A DNA stretch of 51,571 nt, from positions 1-51,571 of the IMG/VR virus record IMGVR_UViG_3300031578_000050. The stretch is one strand, 5' to 3'. The notes below the pieces were generated by a model. That model did no database searches. It saw only the letters and a list, made by a program, of their open reading frames with translations, and was not told the DNA's origin. The translations under genes and the position numbers were made by a program. Shown in pieces: positions 4,007-11,771 of the stretch (the first letter of the stretch is position 1; every line of letters begins with the position of its first letter). This DNA comes from a virus.

Positions 4007-5098
4007 TTAAAGTACTAATAATATTCCCTGATCATTTACTAACCATCCCTGATCTGAAGTGAGAGGTATGGCTACAGAAAAATTCTCTCCATTAACTGAA
4101 TACAAAACTTCGCCCACCTGGGTTGGTTTTGGTAGCCCAGGTCCCGAAATTATCCCATTTACTACCATAGTACGTAAAGCCGATTCGTCCATGCTATCTA
4201 AACATTCACGATATGGATAATAAAAATCAATATAATTTGGAGGTTGCTCAACCTCCCATGTATATGGTACTGAACTATCTAAATGAAACCCTGGTTGTAC
4301 AGCTCGGAATTCAACCTCTACACTGTAACCATCTACTCCATAAGTTCCCTGCCGTGTACGCCCGTATATTCGCCAACCAGAATGAGTACCAGCAAATACA
4401 AATAAACCCGATGAACTGTACCCATCCAGTATGTCTACCTCGGTAGCGTTTAGATTTCCTGCATCAGCCCCGTCACTTATAGGAACTCCAGTACGATTAA
4501 TTGTATCAGCATATGGATAGGTACCATATACTCCAGACATTAAATAATAACCATCACCTACCGAAATCGAAGCGTTATCAAATTTCCGATTAACAACCAA
4601 TGACTTAGCATCAGTGGTCTTTCCAGCTATGTTAGATAAATTAACTGGAACAGCAGTAACCGTATCTGCACAGCGATAATATTCTGGTACGGGCTGATCA
4701 TATCCAACCCCTTTAATCTGTGCCCGATCAGTACGAACATAATTAAGATCATCTGCTAAAGAATAGGGATAACGCTCTGACCAATCTAATCCAGTTTCTG
4801 CAACCGCAGTAGAGTGCTCAATAATTACCGTGCTAGCGTTTATAAATTCTGTAATTAGAAAAGTACCATTGTTATTAACACTAGACAGGGTAAGAAAATT
4901 ACCCACACTTACGCTAGACATTCCAGATAGCCCGGATACTACCCCGGCAACCGTAATAGTTCCGCCAACCCCACTGCGAATAACGGCACCTAAACCTGCC
5001 GATTCATCAGTTAAAGGTAGTACAGTATCTGCTGGATTAGAAGAACCGGCGATATCTAACTGTTGATCTGCTGCATGTACACGCCTATAAACCGTCAT
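4007..5098 (-). CDS. Unknown virion/tail protein, 363 aa
   Basis: Starts MTVYRRVHAADQQLDIAG and overlaps the stop of the upstream gene by an ATGA, so it is translationally coupled to it. Residues 30-100 are rich in short beta-type strands (TITVAGVVSGLSGMSSVSVG, then a 'GTFLITEF' strand), the remainder is aromatic and Tyr/Asp rich (YPYADTINRTGVP, YIDFYYPYRECLDSMDE). No signal peptide or membrane segment is visible. It sits between a 198-aa connector-like ORF and the tail fibre, so a baseplate or fibre-attachment role is a reasonable inference from position only. I do not recognise the family. Confidence 0.8.
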   Translation of the reverse strand: MTVYRRVHAADQQLDIAGSSNPADTVLPLTDESAGLGAVIRSGVGGTITVAGVVSGLSGMSSVSVGNFLTLSSVNNNGTFLITEFINASTVIIEHSTAVAETGLDWSERYPYSLADDLNYVRTDRAQIKGVGYDQPVPEYYRCADTVTAVPVNLSNIAGKTTDAKSLVVNRKFDNASISVGDGYYLMSGVYGTYPYADTINRTGVPISDGADAGNLNATEVDILDGYSSSGLFVFAGTHSGWRIYGRTRQGTYGVDGYSVEVEFRAVQPGFHLDSSVPYTWEVEQPPNYIDFYYPYRECLDSMDESALRTMVVNGIISGPGLPKPTQVGEVLYSVNGENFSVAIPLTSDQGWLVNDQGILLVL

Positions 5099-5691
5099 GA
5101 CCGTACCATATAACTTGATATTAATTGACTATATTCATTGGGCGTAAGAGAAACCATTTCTATAGTATCAAAGCCTGTGCCCGCCCCACCAGATTCAGAT
5201 ACTATATAATCAGTAGTTTCAATTAGCGTTCTGCCGTTATGAATAATAGTAATACGAAAATCGTTGTTTCCCAAAGCTCCTTGCAGAAACTTATCCGGAA
5301 CGGTAAAAATACGATTAATACTATCTCGGGCACCAACGAGCGGTACTCCTTGTTTAAACACATAAGGAGTAGCTCCTAGAGTGTCTAAACCTACCGTGAT
5401 GCCAACTGATTCTAAAAACGCTTTATGGCATGGATCAAATTGTAATAAGTTTATATTTGATTCTACTACTCTTGCTTCACGAGTTTCTAATTTGATTCGT
5501 AAATTACCTTTTAGCAATTCATGTCTAATATCCGCTTCAGAAGTATAAGGTATATCCATCAAATCTCTTACCGCACCATTTTTAATGGGGTAATTGAAGA
5601 TGCGAATAGTTTTATTACCCCGGGCGGTATTTCTTACCCTAAAAACCGTAGGACATATTTTAGGGAATATAGTATGATATCCAACACCCAT
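5095..5691 (-). CDS. Unknown neck/tail protein, 198 aa
   Basis: Starts MGVGYHTIFPKICPTVFRVRN at an ATG that shares one base with the upstream stop (TAATG). The N-terminal third is basic with short strands (NKTIRIFNYPIKNGAVRDLMDIPY), followed by an 'IRHELLKGNLRIKLETREARVVESNINLLQFD' section and a beta-rich C-terminus (FRITIIHNGRTLIETTDYIV). The 'NYPIKNGAVRDLMDIPYTSEADIRHELLKG' region looks like that of phage proteins annotated only as virion structural. Its position between a 263-aa helical protein and tail genes suggests a head-tail interface role; this is inference. Confidence 0.78.
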   Translation of the reverse strand: MGVGYHTIFPKICPTVFRVRNTARGNKTIRIFNYPIKNGAVRDLMDIPYTSEADIRHELLKGNLRIKLETREARVVESNINLLQFDPCHKAFLESVGITVGLDTLGATPYVFKQGVPLVGARDSINRIFTVPDKFLQGALGNNDFRITIIHNGRTLIETTDYIVSESGGAGTGFDTIEMVSLTPNEYSQLISSYMVRS

Positions 5692-6482
5692 TAATCCTTT
5701 ACCTCGTCACAAATAGTAATCGTAATGGTCCGCTGTGCCCTTTTCTCTCCTGTCCGACGAAAATCATTATTGCCAAATATAGCCTCAATAATATTCTGTT
5801 GAGCATTCTTATTTCCATCTATTATAATTGGACCTGAACTGGTCTTCGTCTGCCCTCCCGTTTCATTTAGATATACTCCACGTTTGAGCAGGTTTTCATC
5901 TTTGTCCAGCAGTTTACGGCGCAAATCAGACTCGCTAATCTTGGCTAATTCATCCATACTGAGCCGATATCGGGCATATAATAACTGTTCTAAATAGGCT
6001 ATCTGGGGACGGAATATCTCGTTATCTCCCTGTTTTATTCTTAATACCCGTTCTATCTGGTCATATAAAACCCTAGAATAACTTTCAAAGTATTCGGGGG
6101 CTGTGCCGTAGGCTTCCTTAATGCCTTTAAGAACGCCCATAACCTTAGAAAACAAATGAATCCTGCCCTGTAGCTCCTCATCAATAAACGATTGAGCACG
6201 ATTCCAATACTGGAGATTAGTTCTGGGGTTACGGTCATGTTCCTGATCAATCCGGCGGGTATCAAAAGCCACCTTTGTGAACCCCGGTTGTAAAGCCCTA
6301 ATAGCTGCTTTACGAGCACTACGAGTAACACCAGAGGGCTCTAGATCGTGTTGTATCCTATAAAGCCGTTCTTTAGGGACATGATGAGCGCCAGAAGCCG
6401 ATAGTATTTCATAATCTTCAGCTAATTTGTATAGTAATTCAGCATTACCGGCTAGGGGTAATTTCTTGTTACTTATATGCAT
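5691..6482 (-). CDS. Unknown virion-cluster protein, 263 aa
   Basis: Predominantly helical, charged protein (MHISNKKLPLAGNAELLYKLAEDYE...). It carries one of the recurrent K-x-A sites (FTKVAFD, about residues 88-94). The central part is Tyr/Arg/Glu rich (YFESYSRVLYDQIERVLRIKQ), the C-terminus is basic (RRTGEKRAQRTITITICDEVKD). It is the first gene after the terminator at 6520-6545, so it probably has its own promoter in the 37-nt gap, although no strong Shine-Dalgarno is visible before the chosen ATG (upstream bases are CATATTTTCGAT). A function cannot be assigned. Confidence 0.75.
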   Translation of the reverse strand: MHISNKKLPLAGNAELLYKLAEDYEILSASGAHHVPKERLYRIQHDLEPSGVTRSARKAAIRALQPGFTKVAFDTRRIDQEHDRNPRTNLQYWNRAQSFIDEELQGRIHLFSKVMGVLKGIKEAYGTAPEYFESYSRVLYDQIERVLRIKQGDNEIFRPQIAYLEQLLYARYRLSMDELAKISESDLRRKLLDKDENLLKRGVYLNETGGQTKTSSGPIIIDGNKNAQQNIIEAIFGNNDFRRTGEKRAQRTITITICDEVKD

Positions 6483-6519: not shown

Positions 6520-6545
6520 AGGGCGGCTCCTTTTGGAACCGCCCT
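6520..6545 (-). terminator. Rho-independent terminator after the endonuclease-acyltransferase gene
   Basis: The minus strand reads a stem starting AGGGCGG, with an internal mismatch and a short apical stem closed by GGAA/TTCC around a 4-nt loop, and ends with TTCTTTTT. The stem is about ten base pairs. It lies 23 bp beyond the stop of the 6568-8286 gene and separates the mobile cassette from the tail genes. Confidence 0.88.
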
Positions 6546-6567: not shown

Positions 6568-8286
6568 TTAGACTACAACTTTACCATGATAACTTTCCTG
6601 CACAAAAGCTCCAGGAAATTTCAGCTTATACTGTGCCAATCCGCCGGTAGCCATTCCTAGATTTATTTCGAATGGTCCATATTTGAGTAACTTCTCATAG
6701 AGTTTAATATCGGTAAATTCAGAAAGACCGGGATAATCCTTAGCTAATGCTTTACCGATGATATATGAGCAATGTCCATTTTGAACCGGAGAGGCAACGC
6801 CAAAAGAGATAAGCTGATCTTTATCGTAGACAAAAATACATTCACAATTTTGATGATATTTGTTGGTGAAAAAGTACAAGTTTTTACTACTATAATCTCT
6901 GAAATACTTATCACCCAATGTATCAGACCAACGATTAAGCATTACGTTTAAATCTTCTGTATTATGCAAATCATCTATTGTGTAATGGTTATAACGGTTT
7001 ATATAATTTCTGAGCTTTTTATTATTTCCGCCGAACAAGTCTAAATTATTTATTGGAATAATAACTGATTGTTGTGATTTAACTCTAACTTTAAAGTGTT
7101 CTCGGAGTTTGAGAAGATTTGGTCCTGAGAGATATAAGACACTAAATGTCTCCAGATGTTTCAACCATGCTATATCGTTTTCATTTAAAATATGATCATT
7201 CAAAATTACCATATAATTAATTTTACGTACCTGCCAGAAAAATATGTCGCCCTGGTGTTCTATATTTTTAGATAACTTCCCTAACATGCTAGGAGCACAA
7301 TAATCGTCAAAAAAACTATGACCAACAAAAGTAGACGCTCTGTTAATTATATTATAATGTTTTCCACATTTTCTATTTTTCTGATGCTCAACTAGTTGTA
7401 AATACTTTTCATACTTTCTTTTTAACGTTATTTCAGAATTACTTCCTTTATACAACCAATCACAAATGGTATGAATTTTTTCATTCCCTCCCGTTTGCAT
7501 TTCATATGTATTATTATTAGTTTTTGAAATGTAACAAATAGTACTCGTTAATCCTAATTTATCATATAATATGGTATTAATATAATCTACGAATTCCTTA
7601 GTACCAACCAGAGACCATTTCCATTCTTTTTGTTTTTGACGAAAAGTTAAGCAACCATCGCCATCAAAATATCCACGAATAAAATGTGAATGTAACTTGT
7701 CATCTAACCATTCTGGATATTTAATTATAAAACTTTTAGCCCTTGGACATCCTAAAGCTGTCATTTTACTGCATATATGTTTACTATATATTCTAAGATT
7801 AGAAACACCATCTTCACAATTAATCTTATGTTCAGGTATGCCAAAGAATTTTGCTATTTTTATAACATGTTCATGATCTTTGTCAGACAGACTAATAGTA
7901 AAAGTTCTATCGCTATTATACGCATCAGCATAAAAGAAACCTAACCAATATGCTTGAGCTTTAGTTTCAACCTTGTCAAACACATGCTCCTTTAATTCAA
8001 TAATACGACTACTTTCTGCTACAGAACGTCTTATTCCCCTGTCCTCAACCCATTTTAAGATCTTTCGTTTACTAATTGAAAATTTATCGCTTAATTGTTT
8101 GGCTGATACCCCTTCCCTATACAAAGTACAAACATAATCTATGTCTCCTTTAAAATCTTCCTCCTTTAATTCAATATTGTTTTCTCGTACTGTCTTTTTA
8201 AGATCAGTACTGTTTATTTTTAATAAATGTGCTGTACGTTGAATTGATAATCCTTTTTCAATATATCGTTTAATATCGGTTAACAT
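6568..8286 (-). CDS. Tandem HTH + LAGLIDADG endonuclease fused to GNAT/DUF2156-like acyltransferase
   Basis: Start chosen at the ATG at 8286, which overlaps the upstream stop (ATGTTAA, 7 bp) and has AAGGAA about 10 nt before it; an in-frame TTG at 8316 is less likely. The product is 572 aa. Residues about 3-85 hold two helix-turn-helix units (each with a G-x-S-x-x-x-x-A/L pattern). Residues 112-122 (AYWLGFFYADA) and 201-211 (HFIRGYFDGDG) are the two LAGLIDADG helices of a monomeric homing endonuclease, each with its acidic residue. Residues about 380-570 resemble the GNAT-like fold of phosphatidylglycerol lysyltransferase/FemAB-type proteins (KKLRNYINRYN, IFVYDKDQLISFG, YPGLSEF, INLGMATGGLAQYKLKFPG). 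The endonuclease should cut an intron- or gene-less target; the acyltransferase substrate is unknown. No intein splice residues are seen, so this is a real fusion. Base composition is visibly more AT-rich than neighbouring virion genes. Confidence 0.88.
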   Translation of the reverse strand: MLTDIKRYIEKGLSIQRTAHLLKINSTDLKKTVRENNIELKEEDFKGDIDYVCTLYREGVSAKQLSDKFSISKRKILKWVEDRGIRRSVAESSRIIELKEHVFDKVETKAQAYWLGFFYADAYNSDRTFTISLSDKDHEHVIKIAKFFGIPEHKINCEDGVSNLRIYSKHICSKMTALGCPRAKSFIIKYPEWLDDKLHSHFIRGYFDGDGCLTFRQKQKEWKWSLVGTKEFVDYINTILYDKLGLTSTICYISKTNNNTYEMQTGGNEKIHTICDWLYKGSNSEITLKRKYEKYLQLVEHQKNRKCGKHYNIINRASTFVGHSFFDDYCAPSMLGKLSKNIEHQGDIFFWQVRKINYMVILNDHILNENDIAWLKHLETFSVLYLSGPNLLKLREHFKVRVKSQQSVIIPINNLDLFGGNNKKLRNYINRYNHYTIDDLHNTEDLNVMLNRWSDTLGDKYFRDYSSKNLYFFTNKYHQNCECIFVYDKDQLISFGVASPVQNGHCSYIIGKALAKDYPGLSEFTDIKLYEKLLKYGPFEINLGMATGGLAQYKLKFPGAFVQESYHGKVVV

Positions 8287-9566
8287 TTGGTTGGTTTCCT
8301 TAACACGTAAAAACAATCTGAAGATTTAGTAGACATATGTGAACGAGAATAAGTTATCTCTAATGTGCGGTTTAAACTATATTTGCTTGCTCTGATTAAA
8401 TAAGGGGCTAAATTTTTGCTCATGTTCACAACAAAAAACCCCCGAGGCTTCAACATTTTATCGACATTGTTTATAGTAATTTGCCACCAATTTAAATAAT
8501 TTTTAAATCCGGTATTATACGCTTGTGTTTTATCAAGAGAATAAATCTCTTTATTGAAAAATGGAGGAGATGAAAAACAAAAATCTACTTTTAACGAAGG
8601 ATTAAAATACTCTGAGCCTATGTTGTGCAAAACTGCTGGTAAATTCCATCGGTCTTTGATCCTTTCTAAAGCACAAATGGTTTCTGTCCAAGGATCTAAC
8701 CCAATATATTGCTTAACAAAATGTGCCCCCAACATCCTCTGCCCAAATCCAGCAGAAATGTCCAAAACAATACTACTGGGATTTGTAAACTCCCTGTATA
8801 TAGTCTTTGCTAACTCGGGTCTGAATATGCTGGCTCCAAATGCCGTCCATGAAGTCCTCATTCCCTGTCGTAACATGTTTCCAGTTATATTAAATTCATT
8901 ATTTACTCGGTTTTTTATTACTTTCATTAACTTATCATCATCATTAAAACATTCAATCATGCTTTTTTTACTGCCCACCGAACCGCTAACAAAAAAATAA
9001 TGTTGATTATAATGTTTAAATATCTTTAATCCAGCTTCTCCTCGGCTGTTTATTATATTTCCATCAATGTTTCCACAAGATTTAACCAACCTCTTAAAAT
9101 CGTCATTTAATTCGTTATCTGTATAATTTGGGTAAGGGAACCCATGTTTTCTAAAGTAACCAAATAAAAAGTCCGCAACTTCGTCCTTCTCTCCTTGTGA
9201 AAGAGTATTTAAATACGTGCTAGATAATTCTTTGCTCTTGTAGAAAACAATAGACGAGGTATTATACCTAGATACCTTGCGTTTATTTAAAACTGGTATT
9301 CTTATTTCTCCCCCTAACCTTTTAACAACTCTACATACCGTAGACGCAGATACACCCACATCTTGCGCTATTAACTCAGATGATTCCCCAGATAAGTATT
9401 TGTTAAATATAATTGATTCTAATTTTTTATTTATTCTTCTTGGGCGACCTTTGATATTATTTTTTTTAAGTACTCTACAAACTTTTGCTTGCGATACGTT
9501 TAGACTACGGGCAATTTGTCTAGTACTTTCTCCAGAATCATAAAGATTTATAATTTCGTGCTGCAT
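8280..9566 (-). CDS. Tandem HTH + DNA methyltransferase-like protein, 428 aa
   Basis: Residues 6-36 and 53-85 are two resolvase/homeodomain-like helix-turn-helix units (ESTRQIARSLNVSQAKVCRV; ESSELIAQDVGVSASTVCRV). Residues about 265-425 form a Rossmann methyltransferase: motif I VLDISAGFGQRMLGA at 267-281 with the acidic end of strand 2 at GLDPW, and motif IV FSSPPFF at 331-337, of the S/D-P-P-Y/F type used by amino-methylating (N4-cytosine/N6-adenine) DNA methylases. Between them, residues 110-240 are unassigned. Known family chemistry: methyl transfer from AdoMet to an exocyclic amine. The target here is unknown, and a non-methyl modification cannot be excluded. It is coupled to the downstream endonuclease-acyltransferase gene and starts after a terminator and a direct repeat. 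The chosen ATG at 9566 has no clear Shine-Dalgarno. Confidence 0.82.
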   Translation of the reverse strand: MQHEIINLYDSGESTRQIARSLNVSQAKVCRVLKKNNIKGRPRRINKKLESIIFNKYLSGESSELIAQDVGVSASTVCRVVKRLGGEIRIPVLNKRKVSRYNTSSIVFYKSKELSSTYLNTLSQGEKDEVADFLFGYFRKHGFPYPNYTDNELNDDFKRLVKSCGNIDGNIINSRGEAGLKIFKHYNQHYFFVSGSVGSKKSMIECFNDDDKLMKVIKNRVNNEFNITGNMLRQGMRTSWTAFGASIFRPELAKTIYREFTNPSSIVLDISAGFGQRMLGAHFVKQYIGLDPWTETICALERIKDRWNLPAVLHNIGSEYFNPSLKVDFCFSSPPFFNKEIYSLDKTQAYNTGFKNYLNWWQITINNVDKMLKPRGFFVVNMSKNLAPYLIRASKYSLNRTLEITYSRSHMSTKSSDCFYVLRKPTKC

Positions 9567-9578
9567 TACGAATAATAC

Positions 9579-9671
9579 ACCGATTCAATTGACGGCACTC
9601 GACAGCTAGTTGGTTCATATTTTTTGATGTGCTACCGATTCAACTGATGGCACTCTTGTTGTCTTGGTTCA
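9579..9671 (-). repeat. Two imperfect 38-39-bp direct repeats upstream of the methyltransferase-like gene
   Basis: On the minus strand each copy reads TGAACCAA, a variable 8-9-nt gap, then GAGTGCCRTCARTTGAATCGG. Copy 1 is 9634-9671, copy 2 is 9579-9617, so the period is 54-55 bp. They occupy the non-coding interval between the capsid terminator and the methyltransferase-like start. They could be operator sites for the tandem HTH proteins, or a duplicated insertion scar; the sequence alone does not decide. Confidence 0.7.
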
Positions 9672-9706
9672 ACATTTTAGACGCAGAGGGAACGCTTCAA
9701 AAACCA

Positions 9707-9736
9707 AAAGGCAGTCCACAAAAATGGACTGCCTTT
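9707..9736 (-). terminator. Strong rho-independent terminator after the major capsid gene
   Basis: A 12-bp perfect stem (AAAGGCAGTCCA with TGGACTGCCTTT on the opposite arm) closes a 6-nt loop. On the minus strand it is followed by TGGTTTTTG. It lies 32 bp beyond the capsid stop at 9768 and isolates capsid transcription from the downstream cassette. Confidence 0.9.
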
Positions 9737-9767
9737 CGGGTTACAATTTGGCTTGTTTTAAGCTACA

Positions 9768-10501
9768 TTACGCGCCGATGAGGGTGCTCTTGTTGCCCTT
9801 GGCACAACCGCGGGGGTTAACAATACCAATGCCAATGATTTCCGACACGACCCATCCTAATTTTAGTTGACGGGGCTCGTCGGCGGGAAGGACCTCGATG
9901 TCCTGACGAACAGGCATGACACCAACGAACTCGGGGTCAGCACATCCGTAGACTGTACCTGGGGGAACGATCTTTGAGACCATGATATCAGCGCCCCAGA
10001 TATGAGCATAGAGCCCAGTCTGGAGAATTTCGCGCTGAGTCACCGGGTCCACTTCGCCACCACCGGCACCTTGTCCACCACCGGACGCCCAATTAAGAAT
10101 ATCAGTATACTCATTGATATTCATGAAGAACTTAGTTGTAACCAAGTCCCAGCGATCAATCTGGACCTTAATTTCAACCAAATCCGCCTTGAGCATTCCG
10201 CTATCAGCGATATCTTGTACTCCGTTTTCAACCGCAGAGGCAGAATCGATCGCCGCGAAAACGTTGCCATCTTCCTGAGCCATGATTTCTTGACGCGCCT
10301 TCTGCACGGCACGGTCAATCACGTTGAACCGACGACGCTTAACCTCGGCAATACGAACGGTGGGGTTCGAGTAGATCTCGAACTCGGGTATCGTTACGCG
10401 GTCGCCGAATACGCGGCTTTCGGGTCCGGTGCCATTGCTAGAAACAACAACAGCTGCTACATCAATATCTCGGTCATATACTGGAAGGGCGCCTTGAGGT
10501 A
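9768..10501 (-). CDS. Major capsid protein, exon 2
   Basis: Second exon of the intron-split capsid gene (exon 1 is 11486-11771). Joining 11486 to 10501 restores an uninterrupted 339-aa frame and gives the junction ALVVDP-L-PQGALPVYDRDIDV, a continuous HK97-fold-type sequence with the conserved L-P-Q-G-A element. This exon encodes PQGALPVYDRDIDVA, the E-loop/P-domain region (FGDRVTIPEFEIYSNPTVRI, then RRRFNVIDRAVQKARQEIMAQED spine helix) and the A-domain (GLYAHIWGADIMVSKIVPPGTVYG), ending GNKSTLIGA. The GTG at 10322 is an internal valine, not a start. The protein would form the icosahedral shell; it lies downstream of protease, scaffold and decoration-like genes as expected. HK97-type assignment is from pattern recognition, with no search run. 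Confidence 0.9.
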
Positions 10502-11485
10502 CAATTATGTTAATCTATACATCTCTGTATAGTTCAGACTATATCATCATCCCGGACTGGGAGTTTGGCATGTAGTCGTTGAGGAGCGGTGATAATCTTA
10601 TACTTCATACAATTTATTATATGGGGCTCTACAATTTCACTTAATATCATGCTATTACGCTTATTTGCAGATAAAAAGTAATATTCTTTATTATTACGTG
10701 TATACCCACACACTTTAATATTAATACCGAATTTCATTTTAAGGATTCTTTGAAGCAAGACATTTTCATCTTTAGAGAATCCATCAGTAGAGATTCTGAT
10801 ATTAACATTTTTATTCAAGGAACCATCATCCATTATCCAAGTTGCCAAAGAGAGAGGTGTAACACAATGTTCTATTTCGGGTCTTACAACTTTTTTACGA
10901 TTATCATAAAACAGTTTATTATAAAACCTAAAACCATCATGGGTTACTGTATTAAAAGTATACATATCATTCCGTTTATTTATGATATTCACGAAATTAG
11001 CTAATATCTTTTTTTTCCAGATCACCAAATCTTTTTGTTTTTCACAATGACCTATAATCAAGCGAAACGATTTATTTTTTCTTCCATGCGGGGCGACACA
11101 GCCATCACCGAGCAAGGTACCGACAATCATTTCGTGTTGTTCTTTAGAGATTGGGGTACGTTTCAAGCCATAATATTTACGCTGTTCATTTATGATCTGA
11201 ACATCCCATTTTTTAAGCATACGAGCGACAGAGGATCGATCAATGCCCAAGAGTTCTGCAATCTCATAGGTCGTTTTATGTTTATTTGAATAGAGGTCGA
11301 TGATTTCTTGTTGTTGCATTATCATCTTTCCTGCTGATTGTCTGCGTATCTTTTAAATTTTAACTATAACATTTTTCACTACAGCTCGATGCTAGCAGTA
11401 TTTTATTTATAGTATTAAAAGCTTTTGCAGATGTTCCAGCATATAGCCAAATTTTCCTAACTAAGTTAGGCCGCCACACTAATCG
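10502..11485 (-). mobile_element. Group I intron in the major capsid gene
   Basis: The 984-nt insert interrupts the capsid codon for Leu in 'DPLPQGAL'. The 5' site follows U at 11486 (exon end CCGU). P1 can be drawn as CCGU-CG paired with UGGCGG in the intron, which puts a U.G wobble exactly at the splice site. The intron ends with G at 10502, as required. Near the 3' end the minus strand has GATATAGTCTGAAC, a typical J8/7-P7' core element, followed by a P9-like hairpin CTATAC-agagat-GTATAG. The reading frame from exon 1 meets a stop (TAA at 11466) inside the intron, ruling out an intein. The insert encodes a LAGLIDADG endonuclease whose last codons overlap the catalytic core. Confidence 0.9.
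10534..11319 (-). CDS. Intron-encoded LAGLIDADG homing endonuclease with N-terminal HTH
   Basis: Start chosen at the ATG at 11319 because AGGAAAG is well placed before it; the ATG at 11325 abuts that Shine-Dalgarno. The product is about 261 aa. It opens with one helix-turn-helix (TTYEIAELLGIDRSSVARML), followed by two LAGLIDADG helices, MIVGTLLGDG (about 64-73) and SLATWIMDDG (about 157-166), each with the catalytic aspartate. The role, known for the family, is cutting the intronless capsid allele so that the intron is copied in; maturase activity occurs in some members. The C-terminal DDDIV codons are also the intron core GATGATGATATAGTC, so the gene and ribozyme have co-evolved. Confidence 0.92.
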   Translation of the reverse strand: MQQQEIIDLYSNKHKTTYEIAELLGIDRSSVARMLKKWDVQIINEQRKYYGLKRTPISKEQHEMIVGTLLGDGCVAPHGRKNKSFRLIIGHCEKQKDLVIWKKKILANFVNIINKRNDMYTFNTVTHDGFRFYNKLFYDNRKKVVRPEIEHCVTPLSLATWIMDDGSLNKNVNIRISTDGFSKDENVLLQRILKMKFGINIKVCGYTRNNKEYYFLSANKRNSMILSEIVEPHIINCMKYKIITAPQRLHAKLPVRDDDIV

Positions 11486-11771
11486 ACGGATCTACAACCA
11501 AAGCACGCCTGGCAATTCCCTGATAGTCGAGGTTACGACGAATAGGGTTAGCCATGGCCTGCGCCAACGCAATCTTACCTTCCTGACTCATAACAGCGCG
11601 CTCGATAAGGCTGTCGCGCCTGTCATCATTCATGGAGGGTTGACCCGCGAGGGTCAGATTGGAAGGAGCATTCTCTTCTAGTACAGACGCGAATTTTGCC
11701 ATTTGGGTGAAAGCTTCTTGCAGATTGCCTGCATTAAGTTCGCCCCTACTGTTAAAAATTTCGCCTGCCAT
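11486..11771 (-). CDS. Major capsid protein, exon 1
   Basis: First exon of the capsid gene, starting at the ATG at 11771 with GGAG eight nt upstream (AAAGGAGAAAATAAA). It encodes an N-terminal arm (MAGEIFNSRGELNAGNLQEA) with a helical segment containing MAKFAS, a K-x-A site like those in other head proteins of this window, then ANPIRRNLDYQGIARRALVVDP, the conserved sequence that precedes the L-P-Q-G-A element in exon 2. Splicing at 11486/10501 gives a 339-aa protein. Without splicing the product would stop after 101 codons (ending SISVAA), so intron excision is needed for virion formation. Confidence 0.9.

Follow-up and report, generated by a model that had tools for sequence, protein, structure and literature searches.

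A phage gene pair behind the capsid gene joins a predicted DNA methyltransferase to a homing endonuclease fused with a GNAT acyltransferase

Why should a methyltransferase and an acyltransferase, both bearing DNA-binding domains and one of them fused to a homing endonuclease, lie side by side directly behind a phage capsid gene? This question is raised by a two-gene cassette in the IMG/VR virus record IMGVR_UViG_3300031578_000050, whose complete sequence of 51,571 bases (the window) probably represents part of a larger phage genome. Our tentative answer, to which we assign a probability of roughly 0.45, is that the cassette is a homing or interference endonuclease module carrying DNA-modifying enzymes that mark the carrier's own genome. 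With its tandem helix-turn-helix (HTH) domains as guides, the nuclease would cleave related, cassette-free phages at a conserved site within or close to their capsid gene, and repair of the cut would copy the cassette in, or the rival phage would be crippled. The methyltransferase and, in this lineage, the GNAT would modify the carrier's bases at or around the target site, and this modification would prevent cutting by its own nuclease. We infer both protection as the purpose and the location of the target site in or near the capsid gene.

The gene pair and its conservation

On the minus strand, the capsid gene is followed by a terminator, open reading frame (ORF) A, ORF B, a second terminator and the next gene, designated NEXT.

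9768..11771, minus strand: major capsid gene, fixed upstream neighbor of the cassette (phrog_2522 in both halves)
9704..9739, minus strand: terminator 3' of the capsid gene, upstream cassette edge (16-pair stem and T run)
8280..9566, minus strand: ORF A, HTH-HTH-methyltransferase (428 amino acids)
9312..9563, minus strand: tandem HTH region of ORF A, residues about 2-85 (Pfam HTH_23 1e-9, HTH_38 2e-9)
8283..9194, minus strand: methyltransferase domain of ORF A, residues 125-428 (N6_N4_Mtase, phrog_12517, AlphaFold2 fold)
8280..8286, minus strand: 7-bp overlap of the ORF A stop with the ORF B start, ATGTTAA (from the sequence)
6568..8286, minus strand: ORF B, HTH-HTH-LAGLIDADG-GNAT (572 amino acids from ATG 8286)
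7387..7998, minus strand: LAGLIDADG_3 homing-endonuclease domain of ORF B (Pfam 1e-6; phrog_4645 9e-51)
6571..7362, minus strand: GNAT (LPG_synthase_C/FemX-like) acyltransferase domain of ORF B (LPG_synthase_C 1e-5, AlphaFold2, Foldseek)
6520..6545, minus strand: terminator, downstream cassette edge (11-pair stem and T run)
5691..6482, minus strand: NEXT, conserved gene of the structural (virion) region, fixed downstream neighbor (same gene 3' of the capsid gene or cassette in relatives)

An earlier sequence-only reading of this locus had described two coupled, AT-rich genes between strong terminators and next to the capsid gene. The sequence and the ORF list confirmed both genes and their 7-bp overlap, as well as the minus-strand terminators with their stems and T runs, the adjoining capsid gene and the base composition: the GC content of the cassette is 0.32 (32%), that of the capsid exons 0.51-0.52 and that of the next gene 0.42. 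ORF B is listed with 582 amino acids from a TTG at 8316; judging by the preceding AAGGAAA, ATG 8286 is its likely start. The domain assignments of that reading were also correct. ORF A contains two Pfam HTHs and an S-adenosylmethionine (AdoMet) methyltransferase fold with VLDISAGFGQRMLG and FSSPPFF, and ORF B contains HTHs (weak matches), LAGLIDADG_3 and a C-terminal GNAT.

Relatives were obtained by a GNAT profile scan of IMG/VR contigs, nearly all contigs in this analysis being metagenomic, and flanking sequence was needed for a contig to be testable. Each of the 18 testable contigs, from about 15 phages, had the methyltransferase adjacent to a full-length GNAT or one nuclease gene away from it, which supports conservation of the pair across phage genomes. 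The place of the pair is also fixed: all but one or two GNAT-bearing contigs had it 3' of the same capsid gene, and in L223 (L numbers denote the loci compared), where it lies outside the capsid interval, methyltransferase and GNAT are still together. The sole GNAT without a methyltransferase was a 3' remnant in L141, and a complete GNAT was never found alone. In the closest relative, L131 (a 458-kb contig), the order is capsid gene, HTH-LAGLIDADG-GNAT fusion, methyltransferase and NEXT, and the GNAT is 55% identical to that of the window. L231 has the window order, with HTH-methyltransferase, HNH, GNAT and NEXT preceded by a capsid gene that LAGLIDADG_2 ORFs divide into three pieces. L133 and L134 encode nuclease and GNAT in two separate genes with a 4-bp overlap. 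Profile-based scans were needed to find relatives: when ORF A or the GNAT served as a single query sequence, IMG/VR gave no matches, nor did phage and plasmid records in a tblastn with the GNAT. The sequence-only reading had held that the two genes occurring apart, among unrelated neighbors, would speak against a joint role. The GNAT did not show this pattern, but the methyltransferase was widely found without it.

Nuclease fusions behind the capsid gene

A capsid-protein-seeded scan, together with loci from the other scans, yielded 72 non-redundant capsid-downstream intervals. A nuclease gene or an HTH relic was present in 23 of the 23 intervals that contained the methyltransferase, compared with 15 of the 49 that did not. 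When the scan was seeded with the nuclease only, the methyltransferase or the GNAT was fused to the nuclease or lay next to it in 22 of 23 loci of the close clade (at least 41% identity), whose nucleases are located behind the capsid gene, and in 2 of 59 loci of a distant clade, which otherwise consisted of plain stand-alone genes.

Fusion of the methyltransferase with nucleases is recurrent. N-terminal LAGLIDADG_3 domains were found in L011, L013, L014, L018, L146, L148, L151, L155, L197, L213 and others, LAGLIDADG_2 domains in L002, L105 (twice) and L113, and a Vsr-like or a TnsA-like nuclease in L005 and L012, respectively; the methyltransferase of L136 has a further nuclease-like N-terminus. 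Among about 24 distinct fusion loci checked besides the window, a capsid gene was upstream in all, usually adjacent, and the nuclease and methyltransferase motifs were retained in nearly all fusions. On a methyltransferase tree (a quick tree with some long branches), capsid-linked members clustered (27 rows, support 96), with at least 11 changes of the fusion state.

Both window genes are related to these fusions. The ORF B nuclease shares 47-52% identity with the methyltransferase-fused nucleases of L213, L155, L148 and L197 and with the GNAT-fused nuclease of L131. ORF A aligns with L013 and L011 across both HTHs and the methyltransferase (for the HTH region and L013, 38% identity over 91 amino acids, E 2e-20), and the LAGLIDADG domain that sits between these parts in L013 and L011 is absent from it. 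On these alignments, ORF A is a former HTH-HTH-LAGLIDADG-methyltransferase protein that lost LAGLIDADG and kept the HTHs. The proposal that the cassette is carried on a homing element found support, in that the pair is linked with homing endonucleases at a single site in the genome, and its recurrence at the capsid spot suggests a gene-spreading scissor with its own DNA-marking enzymes.

Three further arrangements involve the methyltransferase. L105 (4483-8936) has two tandem HTH-LAGLIDADG_2-methyltransferase fusions behind a capsid gene, on a contig filed under Altiarchaeales that is either a virus contig or a misbinning. In L011, the capsid interval that contains the nuclease-methyltransferase fusion also contains an extra methyltransferase (4102-5244), which stands alone and is oriented head to head with the fusion. 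In Microcystis phage Mae-JY30 (L009, 5136-7454), a gene distantly related to the methyltransferase shares a three-gene row with a ParB-like gene and the gene of a PALP (pyridoxal phosphate (PLP)-dependent) enzyme, possibly a DNA hypermodification operon.

A parallel cassette was detected behind a different capsid gene. The capsid genes of L005 (from an uncultured phage, 484 kb) and L012 are of the T4 gp23 type (PF07068) and unrelated to that of the window; each is followed by a fusion of a Hef-like homing endonuclease with a Mom-like domain and then by a nuclease-methyltransferase fusion. The C-terminus of the Hef-like protein of L012 matches PF25680 with 27.3 bits (cut-off 27.1), and L005 and the Hef of Klebsiella phage RaK2 match the same profile. 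Thus, the combination of a nuclease-acyltransferase and a nuclease-methyltransferase 3' of a capsid gene was seen twice, with differing nucleases, acyltransferases and capsids. In phage RaK2 itself (L316, 2425-4134), the gene is annotated as a Hef-like homing endonuclease and has a Mom-like C-terminus (E 3e-32 to the L012/L005 profile).

The main competing explanation is that ordinary homing endonucleases occupy a hotspot at the capsid gene and that the methyltransferase and GNAT are useful passengers, which would modify the entire genome as a defense against host restriction and be spread through co-conversion, fusions arising through loss of stop codons. Homing endonuclease genes are indeed known to cluster beside capsid and other essential phage genes (PMC10448857), the overlapping nuclease and GNAT genes of L133 and L134 are one step short of fusion, and the methyltransferase family is frequent in phages without nucleases. 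We nevertheless consider this explanation somewhat unlikely, as it leaves unexplained why a single methyltransferase lineage has been joined to several nuclease types that are unrelated to one another, why other neighbors are unfused, why an equivalent pair lies behind an unrelated capsid gene, and why ORF A kept its HTHs after the nuclease domain was lost.

Substrates of the two enzymes and known systems

ORF A has the features of DNA amino-methyltransferases (N4-cytosine or N6-adenine), with motif I (DISAGFGQR), a motif IV (SSPPF) of the (D/N/S)PP(Y/F) type and a Rossmann fold; motif I plus SSPPF/Y is typical of amino-methyltransferases. N6_N4_Mtase matched it over 61 residues with 32.2 bits (Pfam cut-off 26.7), and its AlphaFold2 model is confident (pLDDT 90). 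Sequence matches to TTHA0409 and to a DNA cytosine-N4 methyltransferase were weak (E 0.004). ORF A is predicted to be an active methyltransferase with DNA as its substrate.

In ORF B, LAGLIDADG_3 scores above the cut-off and both catalytic LAGLIDADG motifs (AYWLGFFYADA and FIRGYFDGDG) are intact; this protein would be an active nuclease. For its GNAT, the LPG_synthase_C match is just under the Pfam cut-off, and that of the relative L223 is above it (49 bits). The AlphaFold2 model is confident (pLDDT 88), and its Foldseek neighbors were MprF, A-PGS, L-PGS, DUF2156, FemX and Sbb17 (E about 1e-10 to 1e-6, TM 0.55-0.67, 10-16% identity), for the most part aminoacyl-tRNA-dependent enzymes. The model and these neighbors place it in the tandem GNAT fold of MprF/FemX-type aminoacyl-tRNA transferases. 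To judge by its fold, the GNAT would transfer an acyl group, and the group is probably an aminoacyl taken from charged tRNA; the donor would then be aminoacyl-tRNA, and the acceptor may be DNA. We also considered ORF B as an intein and dropped this reading because the nuclease is N-terminal rather than inserted within the GNAT.

Mom is a known DNA-modifying GNAT, and the sequence-only reading had likened the window GNAT to it, as part of a putative two-step modification of DNA bases. Membership in the Mom family was rejected: kinship by sequence was not supported, with an hhalign probability of 0.3% to Mu Mom, no phrog_1384 match for the GNAT and no PF25680 among the matches of ORF B. What stood of the analogy is positional, as an endonuclease-Mom fusion occupies the equivalent place in the two gp23-type phages.

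The same fold evidence raises the alternative that the two enzymes have RNA or protein (for example tRNA, capsid-intron RNA or capsid protein) rather than DNA as their substrates. The tRNA m2G enzymes Trm11 and TrmN are the top methyltransferase folds, the GNAT fold is that of aminoacyl-tRNA-dependent transferases modifying lipids or peptides, and the cassette adjoins the capsid gene. We regard this alternative as quite improbable. The enzymes occur in fusions with DNA-binding HTHs and DNA endonucleases, the methyltransferase has its weak sequence likeness to DNA methylases (N6_N4_Mtase above cut-off; TTHA0409 and the cytosine-N4 enzyme), and Mom, a DNA enzyme, occupies the equivalent place in L005 and L012.

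The tandem HTH of ORF A may have its own binding sites, for which two direct repeats are candidates.

9579..9600, minus strand: 22-nucleotide direct repeat, copy 1 (GAGTGCCGTCAATTGAATCGGT), just upstream of ORF A, candidate binding site
9634..9655, minus strand: 22-nucleotide direct repeat, copy 2 (GAGTGCCATCAGTTGAATCGGT), candidate binding site

The copies are 91% alike, lie 13 and 68 nucleotides upstream of ORF A and have no other copy in the window or the other loci; none would be expected by chance. That ORF A is a regulator controlling the cassette through these repeats, its methyltransferase domain being incidental, is highly improbable: the tandem HTH does weakly resemble the repeat-binding protein Cbp1 (47.8 bits, cut-off 140), but the methyltransferase motifs are intact, the domain is well modelled, and a search for akin repeats in front of the relatives found nothing general, most of them showing none.

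Several observations weigh against a nuclease module that marks its own genome. Free-standing homing endonucleases usually avoid self-cutting through divergence of the target sequence, and modification would therefore be needless. L248 has a close-clade nuclease behind the capsid gene without either enzyme. Many phages and some bacterial contigs carry a methyltransferase of this family but no nuclease, so the family has other uses. The tRNA m2G enzymes rank first in the fold search for the methyltransferase, and no tRNA-dependent transferase like the GNAT's nearest folds is known to act on DNA. In addition, the loci are related by descent and hence less independent than the counts suggest, and some of the nuclease and label models were built from the same loci.

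Several known systems share parts of this composition. In Mom-endonuclease (Hef-like) fusions (phrog_3339; RaK2 ORF158), a phage endonuclease is likewise fused to a GNAT-fold DNA-modifying domain; in contrast, the nuclease of the window is a LAGLIDADG enzyme, and its GNAT is MprF/FemX-like and non-Mom by sequence. Such jumbo-phage fusions have been proposed to serve self-protection and attack on rivals (Iyer et al. 2021, PMC7824862); a methyltransferase partner or a fixed position at a capsid gene did not appear in the searched parts of the papers. Free-standing and intron homing endonucleases resemble the cassette in the LAGLIDADG gene beside the capsid gene, its variable presence, scars (L141) and empty sites, and an intron endonuclease is reported to cripple a co-infecting phage (PMC11620839); unlike them, the cassette bears fused and adjacent modifying enzymes. 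Type IIG/IIC single-chain restriction-modification enzymes also combine nuclease and DNA methyltransferase in one polypeptide, with shared DNA-recognition domains. Nuclease and methyltransferase are in one polypeptide in L011, L014, L213 and other relatives, and in two proteins in the window. The cassette differs from type IIG/IIC enzymes in its homing-type nucleases with HTHs, mobile capsid-site location and extra acyltransferase, and no target-recognition domain was found in this cassette type. The aminoacyl-tRNA-dependent transferases MprF, A-PGS, FemX and Sbb17 share the fold of the window GNAT, but the substrates of their known members are lipids, peptidoglycan or antibiotics rather than DNA. 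In the literature covered, which did not extend to subscription journals, we found no homing endonucleases fused to methyltransferases at capsid genes, and PADLOC gave weak type II methyltransferase matches and no defense system in the window.

A self-marking homing module would unite homing endonucleases with restriction-modification in a single mobile element, and a homing nuclease could then be retained as a weapon without harm to its carrier. In its strongest form, the cassette would be a homing restriction-modification system, mobile among very large phages, that cuts the capsid region of rivals and marks itself with a methyl group and a tRNA-derived, amino-acid-like group, a modification not previously described; we consider this form distinctly unlikely. 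If the self-marking reading is correct, the GNAT family, always beside the methyltransferase and with the fold of tRNA-dependent transferases, would be a candidate for an unknown DNA modification.

The capsid gene and its downstream site

The capsid gene of the window is split into a 5' part (11477-11771) and a 3' part (9768-10514), separated by an intron at about 10515-11476, a split that the sequence-only reading did not mention. It is a group I intron: Rfam RF00028 (Intron_gpI) matched 10515-10686 with 37.7 bits (E 1e-7), which is below gathering, and the window has no Rfam match at the gathering threshold. The intron carries an ORF.

10534..11325, minus strand: LAGLIDADG_2 endonuclease ORF within the capsid intron (Pfam 2e-34)

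Capsid genes of relatives (L231, 217-3813; L139, 1754-6230; L235, L236, L238 and L249) are also broken into at least two pieces by LAGLIDADG_2 ORFs, and the capsid gene is therefore a repeated target of homing elements.

Empty intervals, with about 94-250 bp from the capsid gene to NEXT, were detected in L180, L202, L206, L208, L186 and L215. The scar in the capsid interval of L141, its 3' remnant, contains the last GNAT codons. Homing into cassette-free genomes is suggested indirectly, by empty sites and this scar sharing one place, and a capsid-gene site with empty, scarred and occupied versions makes the idea of homing coupled to modification directly testable.

Relatives of the capsid protein in isolated phages were those of Bacillus phage G (52%) and Tunturi_5 (35%); the methyltransferase was not found 3' of the capsid gene in either. 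In phage G, gp28, which adjoins the capsid gene, has a weak match to endonuclease families. Many capsid-downstream intervals hold other genes, including one that, read from the sequence without a family search, resembles tRNA nucleotidyltransferase (CCA-adding enzyme) and is present on the minus strand between capsid gene and NEXT in about 40 loci (L150-L212).

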